Below, in pieces: positions 9,174 through 21,157 of a DNA stretch of 35,397 bases. Below the pieces are notes generated by a model that saw nothing but the letters and a program-made list of their open reading frames with translations, was not told the DNA's origin and did not search any database. Position 1 is the first letter of the stretch; each line of letters begins with the position of its first letter. The stretch spans positions 1 to 35,397 of the IMG/VR virus record IMGVR_UViG_3300025061_000146; one strand, 5' to 3'. The DNA comes from a virus. A program made the translations under genes and the position numbers.

Positions 9174-9556
9174 GCCCAATAGCCCAGTGGTTCCGTAACG
9201 AAGTGACCGATGGCGTGATGCGCCTGCTAGTGCTGCGCCTGCCCAGTGCACCGTGGGAAGACGAAGCCGAATACACCACTAAAACCTGGGTAGAGGTACT
9301 GTGGTCCGCGCCAATCGGCTGGGATGAACAGCAAGACGTTCGCCGCCTACGCTACGCCTTTAACCGCTTGGCTGCGCAATCAGAGCGCTGGCCAGCGCCG
9401 CGCCAACTGCTCGGCATGCTGCCGGAACGCACGCCGCGCCCACGGCTACCCAAGCCACCCATGAGCGAGGCCAAGCGCCACGCCAACCGGGAGCGCCTGA
9501 AAACGATGATTGCCGAACTCGGCCTGAACTCAACGCGAGGAAACCACCGTGAATAA
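9170..9556 (+). CDS. Hypothetical middle-region protein
   Basis: A 128-aa protein overlapping the previous gene by ATGA. Sections RLRYAFNRLAAQSERWPAPR and RPRLPKPPMSEAKRHANRER are basic. The motif 'AFNRLAAQSERWPAP' followed by proline-rich sequence resembles small proteins found before Mor in many Mu-like phages, of unknown role. Ends 8 bases into the Mor-like gene. Confidence 0.65.
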   Translation: MSPIAQWFRNEVTDGVMRLLVLRLPSAPWEDEAEYTTKTWVEVLWSAPIGWDEQQDVRRLRYAFNRLAAQSERWPAPRQLLGMLPERTPRPRLPKPPMSEAKRHANRERLKTMIAELGLNSTRGNHRE

Positions 9557-9977
9557 GCACGATGATGACACACTCGATATGGGCTTCGAGATACCCGACG
9601 ATGCGTTAGAGCACCTAGACCCGGAGATCCTCAAGAAATGGCCGCAGGGTTTGAGCGACATGCTAAGCGTGGTGGAGCATGCCCTGGTGAAAGCGGGAGA
9701 GGATCAGCACTGTGCCCGCCGACATGCCTTTACCGTAGTGCGTGCCATTTCTCGCTTAGCAGGTGGCCGCAGCCTTTACGTACCGCAAGGCAAGCACTTA
9801 GAGCGCGCCTTGCGCGACCGCGCCCTATGGGAGCTGCACAACGGTCACAACGTTGAAGAACTAGCGGCACGCGCAGGCATTACCGTGGTACAGGTGTACA
9901 ACATCATTGCCGAGCAACGGAAGTTGGCGCGTGCCAGGCATCAATCGGATCTGTTCAACGAAACCGCAAACGGCTAA
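9549..9977 (+). CDS. mor: Mor-type middle transcription activator
   Basis: A 142-aa protein starting with GTG at 9549, with GAGG shortly ahead. It shows the Mor/C family pattern: a dimerisation part (LSDMLSVVEHALVKAG, then CARRHAFTVVRAISRLAGG), the strand GRSLYVPQGK, and a C-terminal helix-turn-helix (NVEELAARAGITVVQVYNII). In Mu, Mor activates the middle promoter that makes C, and C then activates the late promoters. Here no second family member is found, so this protein may drive late transcription directly. That is inference. Confidence 0.9.
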   Translation: MNKHDDDTLDMGFEIPDDALEHLDPEILKKWPQGLSDMLSVVEHALVKAGEDQHCARRHAFTVVRAISRLAGGRSLYVPQGKHLERALRDRALWELHNGHNVEELAARAGITVVQVYNIIAEQRKLARARHQSDLFNETANG

Positions 9978-10007
9978 GCTAACCGCGATAATTACGGGGG
10001 ACATATC

Positions 10008-10352
10008 ATGAAAGCATTGGTAGCAGGGATCGTATTCGCGTTAATGGCAACCGTAGCAATAGCCCAAGATAAAGCGGTTACGTTTAGCGAATACTCGGCG
10101 ACAACACAGGCAGCATTCACTCATTCGCAACGCTGCAAAGCCGAGATCACTACTAGCGGTGTAGGTGAACGTTGCAGCCGGTTCTTTGAATACCTAGGAC
10201 GTTATCAAAATGTGGCGGCAGCGTTTCAGGCTAGAATGGCAAACGAGGGAACAGCAGCGTTCGATGGTGCTAGCAGCCCAACCATCAGCGGCCATGAGCA
10301 TTTTGAAGAGCGTTTGACGACCAATATTCACTACATCACAGAGATGATGTGA
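10008..10352 (+). CDS. Secreted (periplasmic) small protein, probable accessory gene
   Basis: A 114-aa protein with a clear signal peptide: MKALVAGIVFALMATVAIA, then cleavage before QDKAV. The mature part is about 95 residues with two cysteines (QRCKAE and GERCSRFF) that could form a disulfide. It is flanked by its own terminator, and its base composition looks more AT-rich than neighbours. It occupies the place of the C activator gene between Mor and lysis in Mu. A lysogenic-conversion or superinfection-related cell-envelope role is possible; nothing in the sequence proves one. Confidence 0.7.
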   Translation: MKALVAGIVFALMATVAIAQDKAVTFSEYSATTQAAFTHSQRCKAEITTSGVGERCSRFFEYLGRYQNVAAAFQARMANEGTAAFDGASSPTISGHEHFEERLTTNIHYITEMM

Positions 10353-10375: not shown

Positions 10376-10403
10376 AACCCGCCCGGCGGGTTGTTTACTT
10401 TTT
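10376..10403 (+). terminator. Rho-independent terminator
   Basis: Stem AACCCGC / GCGGGTT with loop CCG (10376-10392), followed by a T-rich tail GTTTACTTTTT. It separates the secreted-protein gene from the lysis cassette and lies directly before the repeated late element at 10406, so late transcription starts fresh after it. Confidence 0.75.
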
Positions 10404-10405
10404 AG

Positions 10406-10431
10406 TCCCTAAAAATCCCTAAAACGCTTTA
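10406..10431 (+). promoter_or_regulatory. Candidate late-promoter element, copy 1 (before lysis genes)
   Basis: Two direct repeats TCCCTAAAA start 10 bases apart (10406 and 10416), one helical turn, followed by GCTTTA. The end TAAA-ACGC-TTTA is a short dyad. A second copy at 18582-18607 is identical in 23 of 26 bases and the three differences are all transitions. The element lies between a terminator and the lysis cassette, the place of Mu's C-dependent promoter Plys. A loose -10-like TATCCT lies at 10457-10462; TTTATT at 10428 is an alternative. Confidence 0.6.
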
Positions 10432-10512
10432 TTCCCAGTGTTTCCCGCTAAGCCCCTATCCTGACCTCACTGCACTGTGCTTACCGCCCACACCGCATTG
10501 AGGCCTCCAACC

Positions 10513-10824
10513 GTGAACACCCAAACCCGCAACAACCTGCTCGATAAACTGCGCATTGGCCCTTGGCTGATCCTCGCTATTCTCACCACCATTGGCGTGG
10601 CGTTCATGTACCCCCATCAGCTTGGCGTGTTGCTTTGGTCGCTAACCAAGCTGTGCTGGGGCGCGTACCTCGGCTACTGGATCGACCGCAGCATCTTCCC
10701 CTACGCACGCCCAGGCGACTATCAGTGCAGCGACGGCTATGACTTGAGTGCCATTGCGTTACTCATGCTCCGCCGCGCCATCATCATCGCCGCCGCAATT
10801 CTGGCTCTCGGGTTGGGGGTGTGA
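10513..10824 (+). CDS. Putative holin
   Basis: A 103-aa membrane protein read from GTG 10513 (GAGG nine bases ahead); an earlier in-frame GTG at 10477 has no ribosome site. Hydrophobic segments: residues about 17-32 (GPWLILAILTTIGVAF), about 36-55 (LGVLLWSLTKLCWGAYLGYW) and about 82-102 (RRAIIIAAAILALGLGV). Three short membrane helices and position before the endolysin fit a class I-type holin, which opens the inner membrane at lysis time. The family resembles the putative holins of B3-like phages. First gene after the candidate late element. Confidence 0.75.
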   Translation: MNTQTRNNLLDKLRIGPWLILAILTTIGVAFMYPHQLGVLLWSLTKLCWGAYLGYWIDRSIFPYARPGDYQCSDGYDLSAIALLMLRRAIIIAAAILALGLGV

Positions 10825-10825
10825 C

Positions 10826-10990
10826 ATGGCCGCTGAAACCGCCGCCGAGCTAATCGAGAAAGGCTGGCGCGACCTTGCTGAGCTTGAGGCAGCGATAATG
10901 CCGCCCGCTGCCTTATTAGCTAGCTATTACCGCTTGAAGGACACCCTCCAGCGTGCCGAAGCAGCGTTGGAAAAGGAGCGCCCAGAATGA
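10826..10990 (+). CDS. Small lysis-cassette protein of unknown function
   Basis: A 54-aa protein from ATG 10826, one base after the holin stop and overlapping the endolysin start by ATGA. Helical and amphipathic: MAAETAAELIEKGWRDLAEL at the start and YYRLKDTLQRAEAALEKERP at the end. An upstream in-frame start at 10748 lies inside the holin gene. No membrane segment. It could modulate lysis, but there is only position to suggest it. Confidence 0.6.
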   Translation: MAAETAAELIEKGWRDLAELEAAIMPPAALLASYYRLKDTLQRAEAALEKERPE

Positions 10991-11640
10991 ACGATCTAAA
11001 AGCCTACCTGCGCGCTAACGGCACCTGGATAGCCATGAGTTTAGTGCTGGCCACGCTGCTAATGCTGGAAGCCTGCCAACCTGCCCACGCCCAAATACCC
11101 AGCGCCGCCCACGGCTACCAACGCGAGCTAACCCGCATCGTGCAACAAGAATGGGGCATGAACGGCCGTGTGGCCGTGCATGCCGCGCAGATCCACCAGG
11201 AAAGCGCCTGGCGCTCCAGCGTCAACAGCCCAGTGGGCGCGCAGGGGCTTAGCCAGTTTATGCCCAGCACTAGCGCGTGGATCGCCGAGATTTACCCCGA
11301 CCTTGGCCGCGCTGCGCCATATTCCCCTACCTGGGCGATGCGTGCCCAGGCGCGCTATAACCGTTGGCATTGGCAGCGGCTACGCAGCGCCGCTGACGAA
11401 TGCCAACGCTGGGCAATGGCTCTTAGCGCCTACAACGGCGGTTTGGGCTGGGTGAACCGAGATAGACGCTTAGCGACAGCCGCCGGGGACAACCCCGGCG
11501 TTTGGTTTGGTAGCGTCGAGAAATACACCAACCGTGCTGGCTGGGCCAAGCGCGAAAACCGCCACTACGTGCGCCACATTTTGCTTGAGTTAACGCCCCG
11601 CTATTCGAGTGCTGGCTGGCAAGGGGGTGCGCCATGCTAA
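10987..11640 (+). CDS. Lytic transglycosylase endolysin (SLT domain)
   Basis: A 217-aa peptidoglycan lyase. The SLT pattern is clear: catalytic Glu72 in IHQESAWRSSVNSPVGAQGL, then SQFMPSTSAWI, and later the AYNGG motif (ALSAYNGGLGWVNRD). An N-terminal hydrophobic stretch (residues 14-27) ends in AHAQ, so export by signal peptide or as a signal-anchor (SAR-like) form is likely; a lipoprotein reading (LEAC, Cys30) is less likely because of Glu at -2. Mu also encodes its endolysin at this place. It overlaps both neighbours by a few bases. Confidence 0.92.
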   Translation: MNDLKAYLRANGTWIAMSLVLATLLMLEACQPAHAQIPSAAHGYQRELTRIVQQEWGMNGRVAVHAAQIHQESAWRSSVNSPVGAQGLSQFMPSTSAWIAEIYPDLGRAAPYSPTWAMRAQARYNRWHWQRLRSAADECQRWAMALSAYNGGLGWVNRDRRLATAAGDNPGVWFGSVEKYTNRAGWAKRENRHYVRHILLELTPRYSSAGWQGGAPC

Positions 11641-18581: not shown

Positions 18582-18607
18582 TCCCCAAAAATTCCTAAAA
18601 TGCTTTA
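18582..18607 (+). promoter_or_regulatory. Candidate late-promoter element, copy 2 (before protease/capsid genes)
   Basis: Second copy of the element at 10406-10431: TCCCCAAAA, then one base, TTCCTAAAA, then TGCTTTA. It matches copy 1 in 23 of 26 positions; the changes at positions 5, 12 and 20 are all C/T. It lies 38 bases ahead of the protease start, the place of the Mu promoter PI. Hexamers starting 26 bases after the element (TATCCT in copy 1, GAGAAT here) each match four of six -10 positions; the true -10 is not certain. Confidence 0.6.
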
Positions 18608-18613
18608 AATCCA

Positions 18614-18646
18614 ATGCCCCCGGAATCCCATCGAGAATGGGGGCAT
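18614..18646 (+). other. Hairpin covering the protease start codon
   Basis: ATGCCCCC (18614-18621) is complementary to GGGGGCAT (18639-18646), whose last two bases begin the protease ATG at 18645. The inner part can also pair as CCCAT/ATGGG. The only ribosome-site-like bases (GGGGG) are in the stem, so the start is partly closed. This suggests low or controlled translation of the protease relative to the scaffold, which has its own strong site inside the gene. Confidence 0.45.
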
Positions 18647-19766
18647 GAAAACACGAACCGCAGCACCTCACCCCATCGCCGTTTGCGCGGCCAGTCACAC
18701 CGCTCCCATTGCGGCGTTGGCGCTGCGTGTATCGCGAGACGACGGCAAGACCCGCCTCATTCCAGCCGGAGAATTTAACGCCCCCCGTGGCGCGATGAGC
18801 GGCAGTGGCCCATGGCAGCTAGACGCCACTGGTGCCCAGGCCATCATCGCGCTCGCTGCCGCCCGTTCTACCGATATCCCCATCGACTATGAGCATCAAA
18901 CGCTCATGGCCGAACGCAACGGCTTACCGGCTCCTGCCGCTGGCTGGATTGACCCGCGCTCGCTGGAGTGGCGCAACGACGGCCTATACGGCCAAGTGAC
19001 GTGGACGGTTGCCGCGAAAGCAGCGATAGACGCCGACAGCTACCGCTATCTATCCCCCGTGTTCCCGTACGACGCCGACACCGGTGCTGTGCTGGATCTG
19101 CTGCACGTTGCCCTGACAAATACCCCGGCGATCGACACCGCCATTACTGAACTCGCCGCAGCCCGAGCCGGGCGCGGTGCCTCTGAAGCGACATCCTCAA
19201 AGGAGAACACCGTGGACCGCGAAAAACTGATCGCCCAGCTAGGGCTAGCGACAGACGCCACCGATGAGCAGATCGACACCGCCATCGCCGCGCTTAAAGC
19301 AGGCGACGCTGACGCCAAGGCATTGCGTGAGGCACTTGGTGCCAAAGACGACGCAAAGCCTGCTGACGCCGTTGCTGCCTTGAAAGCCTCCAGCGCTGCC
19401 GCCGCCCATGACATGAGCCAGTACGTACCTGTGGCCGTGTACCAAGAAACCACTCAGCAACTGGCCGCCCTGAAAGCCAATAGCAACACCGCTGAGCTGG
19501 ACGCGCTGATTAAGAAAGGCCTAGACGATGGCCGCATTCCAGGTAAAGCCACCGCCGATTGGCTACGCGCGCAAGGCATCGCTGCCTGCAAGGCGCATCT
19601 CGATGGCGCACCTAGCATCGCCGCGCTGAAAGCTACCCAGACCCAGGGCAAGCCGCCGGAAGGCAGCGAGACCAAAGGCGACGGCAAGCTAACCGAAACC
19701 GAGCTGGCCGTGTGCAAGGCCGCTGGCCTTACGCCCGAACAGTACCGCGCCGCCAACCCAGCGTAA
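18645..19766 (+). CDS. Head maturation protease with fused scaffold (Mu gpI-like)
   Basis: A 373-aa protein. Residues 1-180 match the Mu-like protease family: IPAGEFNAPRGAMSG, DIPIDYEHQTLMAERNG with the conserved His, PAPAAGWIDPRSLEWRNDGL and SYRYLSPVFPYD with a conserved Ser. Residues 190-373 are helical, Ala- and Lys-rich and resemble the scaffold part. The protease cleaves scaffold and capsid proteins during prohead maturation. A second start at 19212 should make the scaffold alone, as for I and Z in Mu. It is the first gene after the second late element. Confidence 0.92.
   Translation: MKTRTAAPHPIAVCAASHTAPIAALALRVSRDDGKTRLIPAGEFNAPRGAMSGSGPWQLDATGAQAIIALAAARSTDIPIDYEHQTLMAERNGLPAPAAGWIDPRSLEWRNDGLYGQVTWTVAAKAAIDADSYRYLSPVFPYDADTGAVLDLLHVALTNTPAIDTAITELAAARAGRGASEATSSKENTVDREKLIAQLGLATDATDEQIDTAIAALKAGDADAKALREALGAKDDAKPADAVAALKASSAAAAHDMSQYVPVAVYQETTQQLAALKANSNTAELDALIKKGLDDGRIPGKATADWLRAQGIAACKAHLDGAPSIAALKATQTQGKPPEGSETKGDGKLTETELAVCKAAGLTPEQYRAANPA
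19199..19205 (+). promoter_or_regulatory. Internal ribosome site for the scaffold protein
   Basis: AAAGGAG inside the protease gene, six bases ahead of an in-frame GTG at 19212. It is much stronger than the site at the protease start, predicting more scaffold than protease. Confidence 0.7.
19212..19766 (+). CDS. Scaffold protein from an internal in-frame start (Mu gpZ-like)
   Basis: Begins at GTG 19212, codon 190 of the protease gene and in the same frame, giving 184 aa. The product is helical and shows scaffold features: Ala/Lys-rich (LGLATDATDEQIDTAIAALK), a middle coiled part (YQETTQQLAALKANSNTAEL) and the ending TELAVCKAAGLTPEQYRAAN seen in Mu-type scaffolds. In Mu the I gene likewise holds the scaffold gene Z as its 3' part. 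The internal start is inferred from its ribosome site and the Mu precedent. Confidence 0.7.
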   Translation: MDREKLIAQLGLATDATDEQIDTAIAALKAGDADAKALREALGAKDDAKPADAVAALKASSAAAAHDMSQYVPVAVYQETTQQLAALKANSNTAELDALIKKGLDDGRIPGKATADWLRAQGIAACKAHLDGAPSIAALKATQTQGKPPEGSETKGDGKLTETELAVCKAAGLTPEQYRAANPA

Positions 19767-19802: not shown

Positions 19803-20240
19803 GTGACCGCTGCAACCCAAAACCGAAACACCCCGCACCGCTTAGGGCTGTCTCGCGGCCATCTGGTCGCGGCGGCTGCAGAGTGCTTCGCGGGCACTAT
19901 CGCCGTCATCAATGCCGACGGCTTTACCGAGCCAGGCAGCACCGCCACGGGCCTAACAGCCGCTGGTGTGTTCGAGCACTACCAGGACAACACGGCAGGC
20001 GCGGACGGCGACCAGGTCGTGGAAGTGAAGCGCGGTAATTTCTACCTGGTTAACTCTGCCGGTGCGGATGAGATCACCGCCGCCGACGTGGGCAAGGTTT
20101 GCTACGTCGTCGATGACCAGACCGTTGCTAAAACCAGCGGCACAGACACCCGCTCCCCCGCTGGCATTGTCGACGACGTCGACGATGGTGGCGTGTGGGT
20201 CAACATCGACCCGACTAACGGCGTGGCCGCTAGCGCGTAA
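19803..20240 (+). CDS. Probable capsid cement/decoration protein
   Basis: A 145-aa protein starting with GTG 19803 (AAGAGG ahead). Beta-rich with turns: HRLGLSRGHLVAAAAECFAG, EVKRGNFYLVNSAGADEITA, VGKVCYVVDDQTVAKTSG and AGIVDDVDDGGVWVNIDP. The last pattern is typical of capsid cement proteins of the DUF2190 sort, which bind outside the mature head. It lies between scaffold and major capsid genes, the usual place. The family call is by pattern and position. Confidence 0.7.
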   Translation: MTAATQNRNTPHRLGLSRGHLVAAAAECFAGTIAVINADGFTEPGSTATGLTAAGVFEHYQDNTAGADGDQVVEVKRGNFYLVNSAGADEITAADVGKVCYVVDDQTVAKTSGTDTRSPAGIVDDVDDGGVWVNIDPTNGVAASA

Positions 20241-20254
20241 TAAGGACTGCCTAC

Positions 20255-21157
20255 ATGAATCTTACCCAAGCCAACTTGAAGGTGCTGTTCCAGGCCTACA
20301 ACGCTGCCTTCCAGCAGGGCTTTAGCTCAATGGGGGAACAGGCAGCGCTTTATGAGCTGTTCTGTACCACCGTGCCAAGCACCACTGCCGTGGAGGTGTA
20401 CCCGTTCCTCAAGAGCCTACCGCGCATGCGCGAATGGCTGGGCGATCGCGTCATCCACAGCCTGGAAGGCGCGGCGTTCAGCATCAAGAACCGCAAGTTC
20501 GAGCTGACCGAAGGCGTGCCACGGGATTCCGTAGAAGACGACACCTACGGTCTGTGGTCACCCATCTTCCAAGAGTTTGGCCGTAGCTCACGTGAGCACC
20601 CCAACGAACTCGCCGTGGAAGTGCTGGAGCAAAACCCCGAGTGCTACGACGGCCAGCCGCTGTTTGATACCGACCACCCGGTGCTGGATAAGTCGGGCAA
20701 AGAGATCTCGGTCAGTAACGACATGGGCGGCACAGGCGACGCCTGGTACGTGATGGACAACACTCGTGTGATCAAAGCGGTCATGTTCCAGAAGCGCCGT
20801 GATTACAACTTCCGCTCCATTACCGATCTCAACGACACGCAAGTGTTTATGACCGACAAGTTCCTGTTCGGCGTAGATGCCCGCGTGAATGGCGGGGCCG
20901 GCCTTTGGCAGCTCGCCGTGCGTTCTCGCAAGCCGTTTAACGCCGAGAACTACGAAGAAGCACGCCAGGCACTGACGAAGCTGAAAGGCGACTACGAACG
21001 CCCGCTGGCACTGCGTCACTCGCACACCATGGTGCCTAACTCCATGGAAGGCGCTGCCCGTGCCGTGTTGCAAAGCCAACTCGCAGCAGGCGGTGAAACC
21101 AACAAGTGGGCCAACACCTCGACGCTGGTGTTGAACCCCTGGTTAACCAGCGCTTAA
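20255..21157 (+). CDS. Major capsid protein (Mu gpT-like)
   Basis: A 300-aa head subunit of the Mu gpT family. Clear landmarks: NLTQANLKVLFQAYNAAFQQ at the N-terminus, VEVYPFLKSLPRMREWLGDR, GVPRDSVEDDTYGLWSPIFQ, CYDGQPLFDTDHPV, and ERPLALRHSHTMVPNSMEGA near the end. Good ribosome site (AAGGA, eight bases ahead). The gene is followed by a 12-pair hairpin, which may protect the mRNA of this highly made protein. Confidence 0.95.
   Translation: MNLTQANLKVLFQAYNAAFQQGFSSMGEQAALYELFCTTVPSTTAVEVYPFLKSLPRMREWLGDRVIHSLEGAAFSIKNRKFELTEGVPRDSVEDDTYGLWSPIFQEFGRSSREHPNELAVEVLEQNPECYDGQPLFDTDHPVLDKSGKEISVSNDMGGTGDAWYVMDNTRVIKAVMFQKRRDYNFRSITDLNDTQVFMTDKFLFGVDARVNGGAGLWQLAVRSRKPFNAENYEEARQALTKLKGDYERPLALRHSHTMVPNSMEGAARAVLQSQLAAGGETNKWANTSTLVLNPWLTSA

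Follow-up and report, generated by a model that had tools for sequence, protein, structure and literature searches.

A Mu C-type candidate activator site shared by the lysis and protease promoters of a Mu-like phage

The closest described systems are those of phage Mu. Mor binds two 5-bp inverted repeats within a 16-bp element that is centred at -43.5 and replaces the -35 element, and at the Mu promoter Pm the C-terminal domain of the RNA polymerase alpha subunit (alpha-CTD) sits on A/T-rich DNA upstream of the Mor site (PMC4390567). Mu C activates lys, I, P and mom, its effect at the first three being on open-complex formation (PMC4461284).

The DNA analysed here (the window) is the whole of IMG/VR virus record IMGVR_UViG_3300025061_000146, 35,397 nucleotides. 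It resembles the Mu C system with its promoters Plys, PI, PP and Pmom in several ways: a Mor/C-family activator, promoters at the lysis and I genes, a weak -10 without a good -35, and a dyad at about -43.5. It differs in having another dyad sequence, two sites rather than four, one activator rather than a Mor-then-C cascade, and an I mRNA that is probably leaderless, whereas the Mu I start codon lies well downstream. The Mu Pmom dyad, TTATGCCCCAATAA, has the same centre (~-43.5) when counted on the Mu sequence from what we take to be the Pmom -10. The dyad of the window group, TAAA-NYGC-TTKA, is not that of Pmom; the sequence varies between clades and so was not taken as defining. Mor and Pm share with the window a site centred at -43.5 in place of the -35 and A/T-rich DNA just upstream, the alpha-CTD site of Pm and a possible one in the window (PMC4390567). 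However, the window sites would drive late blocks rather than the middle operon, and both dyad sequence and arm spacing differ.

A conserved dyad at two probable late promoters

The element occurs at 10406–10431 (TCCCTAAAAATCCCTAAAACGCTTTA) and 18582–18607 (TCCCCAAAAATTCCTAAAATGCTTTA), both intergenic, and the copies agree in 23 of 26 bases, with C/T changes only. No third copy was found at up to 3 mismatches on either strand of the whole window (chance expectation from dinucleotide shuffles, 0.00). The first copy lies 3' of an intrinsic terminator and 5' of the holin and transglycosylase genes, and the second 5' of a Mu-like I protease gene (Table 1). The preliminary description had reported this pair, its uniqueness and its correspondence to Plys and PI, all of which hold. 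It had also read the element as two direct repeats, TCCCTAAAA, combined with a TAAA-N4-TTTA dyad. Both are literally present in the window, the direct repeat in copy 1 and, with one change per half, in copy 2; relatives keep only the dyad side.

Two matches were rejected as further sites: TCGTAAACCGCTTGA, at the same place inside conserved coding DNA in L175 and L176, and TCTTGAAGCGCTTTA, antisense in the lysis block and recurring inside conserved coding DNA. Both look like coding coincidences.

Relatives were fetched from viral contigs and bacterial genomes with the Mor-like protein encoded at 9549–9977, and every named host belongs to the Halomonadaceae. Among relatives of at least 56–58% identity, almost all have a site after the activator gene and before the lysis genes, and a second site precedes the I gene where the contig extends far enough. 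Collapsing identical promoters left 33 distinct lysis and 23 distinct protease (I) promoters from Halomonadaceae Mu-like phages, which share a string of about CYCCTAAA-NYGC-TTKA-WTCC with the core dyad TAAA-N4-TTKA. The working unit consists of the dyad TAAA-NYGC-TTKA, preceded directly by an A/T tract and followed, after 25 nt, by a hexamer resembling a -10. The Plys and PI dyads alike hold 1.68 bits of information per column, vs 0.2–0.4 further upstream, and the A/T fraction of the tract is 0.81 over the 33 Plys sequences vs 0.32–0.58 further upstream. Symmetry is imperfect in many Plys copies, which have TTGA in place of TTTA.

The hexamers are mostly TAGCCT or TATCCT at lys, and GATCAT and its variants at I; the promoter table was filtered on such hexamers, and on an ATG at PI, so that the uniformity of the 25-nt gap is partly by construction, and unfiltered scans agree with it. 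No sigma70-type -35/-10 pair was found at Plys or PI. With the hexamer counted as -12 to -7, the dyad is centred at -43.5, and given this assigned -10 it would take the place of the -35 as at Mor/C-type promoters. As in those systems, the sites stand at the lysis and I transcription units.

Table 1. Positions of the activator gene, the two promoters and their neighbouring features in the window
Feature	Position	Strand	Remarks
Mor/C-family late activator gene, 142 aa	9549..9977	+	PF08765, E 2.4e-23; only Mor-family ORF in window
Intrinsic terminator hairpin then T-rich tail, just upstream of Plys	10376..10392	+	
Plys A/T tract, -56..-53, possible alpha-CTD contact	10413..10416	+	function suggested by Mu Pm (PMC4390567)
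Plys putative activator dyad TAAAACGCTTTA, -49..-38, centre -43.5	10420..10431	+	conserved in relatives
Plys -10 hexamer TATCCT, predicted +1 ~10469	10457..10462	+	25 nt past dyad, as in relatives
Start of lysis block: holin and transglycosylase genes	10477..11640	+	PF13272, PF01464
PI A/T tract, -56..-53	18589..18592	+	A/T fraction 0.83 over 23 PI
PI putative activator dyad TAAAATGCTTTA, centre -43.5	18596..18607	+	conserved in relatives
Inverted repeat ATGCCCCC/GGGGGCAT; loop holds -10, right arm holds first two I start-codon bases	18614..18646	+	
PI -10 hexamer GAGAAT	18633..18638	+	25 nt past dyad, 6 nt before ATG
I protease/scaffold gene, ATG = predicted +1 (probably leaderless mRNA)	18645..19766	+	PF10123

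Pairing of activators with their probable sites

The phage encodes a Mor-family (PF08765) activator at 9549–9977, the sole match to this family among all ORFs of the window. Its product is 37–39% identical to Mu C, and its relatives in the PDB are 9vw8, 9l0x (Mu C) and 1rr7 (Mor). Directly after the gene lies a small ORF (10008–10352) with a signal-peptide-like N-terminus. Relatives of this ORF come after the activator gene in some members of clade 1 and also in clade 2 (L202, L203).

A strict pattern, which fits the Plys form only and therefore undercounts PI, gave 11 matches in 8 of 275 Halomonadaceae genomes. All 8 carry a mor-like gene, and each match lies within ~2 kb downstream of it; the remaining 267 genomes have no such site, and the reversed pattern used as a control gave no matches in the 275. 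In IMG/VR, all 15 matches to the clade-1 PI pattern stand in front of an I gene.

Site and activator also change together. Clade-2 activators (L202, L203, L208–L215) are 46–48% identical to that of the window, and the phages that encode them carry TTTAA-N4-CGCTA at Plys and PI alike, with the 25-nt gap to the -10 unchanged, while their -10s, type of lysis leader and I gene match those of clade 1. No clade-1 sites were found in L208–L215 and no clade-2 sites in clade-1 loci. Because the two promoters are ~9 kb apart, one local exchange does not explain the swap. Alteromonadaceae phage B23 and Chromohalobacter phage YPCBV-1 likewise represent phages with their own PF08765 activator and a matched dyad before both the lysis and the I genes, and they differ from the window in the dyad itself: CTGAA-N4-TTCAG in the B23 type, CTGAAG-NCC-TTCGCC or a near variant in the YPCBV-1 type. 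Of 27 matches to the B23-type pattern in IMG/VR, most lie before I or lysis genes of Mu-like phages. No earlier description of the late promoters of B23 or YPCBV-1 was found in the literature searched. In L220, a minus-strand match to the B23-type site is followed by a -10, 6 nt and an ATG, before a gene whose product has, by eye, a Mu gpN-like N-terminus; this may be a third late promoter resembling PP, in a different phage.

Four more Mor-family phages, HS6, Pmp9, martha 12B12 and ZX4290, were searched with no site given in advance. An element is common to the lysis and I regions in HS6 (23 of 24 positions) and Pmp9 (15 of 16); martha 12B12 and ZX4290, two of the four, showed no clear common element. 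In Pseudoalteromonas phage HS6 (L256) this 24-bp element, TTCCCGAAACSCCGCACGGCCAAC, lies upstream of the endolysin and protease genes, within 9780–9990 and 20200–20345, and is probably that phage's own late activator site. The naturally occurring pairs of activator and site lend themselves to a study of DNA selection by Mor/C proteins.

Weighing the possible readings of the element

We hold with considerable confidence that the element is the operator of the phage's single Mor/C-family late activator, the product of 9549–9977, and drives Plys and PI; binding, activation, alpha-CTD contact and RNA starts are predictions. The dyad TAAA-NYGC-TTKA, with its centre at -43.5 where a -35 would otherwise lie, would be bound by an activator dimer, and the adjoining A/T tract may hold the alpha-CTD. 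The activator would then turn on host RNA polymerase at the two -10 hexamers, giving a lysis transcript from Plys and a head transcript from PI, the latter with its predicted 5' end at the A of the I start codon. Contact with the alpha-CTD may not apply throughout, since the B23 and YPCBV-1 clades have no A/T tract upstream of the dyad.

It is improbable that the element instead belongs to host regulation, as the binding site of a transcription factor of the host or as a host-type promoter or UP element, with the Mor-like protein acting elsewhere. The A/T tract would suit such a role, and host RNA polymerase must be used in any case; against it, the strict site is absent from 267 of the 275 family genomes and never stands away from a mor-like gene, both sites vary together with the phage activator, the remaining promoter parts being kept, and there is no sigma70 consensus pair. 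A dyad at promoters of a temperate phage might also suggest the operator of a phage repressor, or of another phage DNA-binding protein, that shuts the late genes in lysogeny. This we regard as very improbable, given that the left end, with the early promoter and the repressor region, has no copy, that the centre at -43.5 upstream of the -10 is as for an activator, and that the change of site follows the Mor-family clade. Hardly any weight is given to the direct repeat TCCCTAAAA as the functional unit, with two tandem half-sites one helical turn apart. For all that it can be seen in both copies of the window, the left repeat is missing even from the closest relatives, L003 and L028, which carry CCCCCGAAAA and CCCTGAAAAA at its position, and from all others; the A/T tract alone remains there, and the direct-repeat design of the preliminary description is to be dropped.

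The dyad, the A/T tract, the constant 25-nt spacing, the restriction to two promoters and the joint change of site and activator can be read directly from the compared genomes. Only the last of these speaks for the activator binding the site and being needed for transcription. The preliminary description had tentatively named the Mor-like protein as the reader of a new type of late activator site. With both sites varying according to the activator clade, the protein is very probably the reader. A late activator site is retained; its sequence and the arrangement downstream of PI are new, but its type is not, since the -43.5 position, the missing -35 and the upstream A/T tract match Mu Mor/C. 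It is thus very probably a Mu C-type site with a new sequence and not a new mechanism. What is new is the site sequence, the parallel variation of the two sites and the activator, and the apparently leaderless I arrangement. Sequence alone yields a probable late regulon for an entire group of Mu-like phages.

The start of the I gene

A stretch of 6 nt separates the PI -10 from an ATG, both in the window and in all intact PI sequences that were identified purely by site score; therefore +1 should be the A of the I ATG, and the I message probably has no leader. Coding from this ATG onward is real: in codons 2–20 of related I genes, changes fall at third, first and second positions as 490:117:105, counted pairwise and not as independent events. 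The B23 types show this order of -10, 6 nt and ATG at both lysis and I, and their lysis transcript also looks leaderless; in YPCBV-1, neither transcript does.

Across lineages, an inverted repeat at PI has the -10 in its loop and a right arm that ends at or in the ATG. Its arms differ by lineage (GCCCCC/GGGGGC, CATGCCCGC/GCGGGCATG, GGGCGC/GCGCCC and TGCGCCC/GGGCGCA); that of the window, ATGCCCCC/GGGGGCAT, has a folding energy of -18.2 kcal/mol (z -3.3). Lysis promoters with a leader have no inverted repeat over the -10. When arms are exchanged between lineages, the share with at least 5 pairs drops from 59% to 14%, suggesting that the repeat is partly covarying; this is suggestive only, because some B23-pattern sequences have no repeat and GC-rich arms favour pairing. 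The PI transcript itself would have no left arm, and any effect would thus be on read-through RNA or promoter DNA. In read-through RNA, the repeat could hide the I start codon.

A doubtful extension is that all capsid protease/scaffold comes from the gene's own leaderless transcript, driven by the activator, with read-through RNA folding over the AUG and staying silent, and that this occurs in at least two Mu-like lineages (the Halomonadaceae phages and the B23 types). If the I message is indeed leaderless, translation of a late structural gene would begin in a manner that Mu is not known to use, with the start codon possibly hidden in read-through RNA. No papers on leaderless late phage genes with such an inverted repeat were found in the literature searched.

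Similarity ends sharply to the left of the PI site in L171, L172, L202 and most clade-1 loci, and several phages carry unrelated cargo ORFs there, so that the PI site marks a module boundary. L166 (record G013) has two PI-type sites 1.6 kb apart, at 544 and 2188. The first precedes the 5' end of an I gene whose codon 7 is a stop and the second an intact I start, an arrangement that looks like a partial duplication with an insert between.
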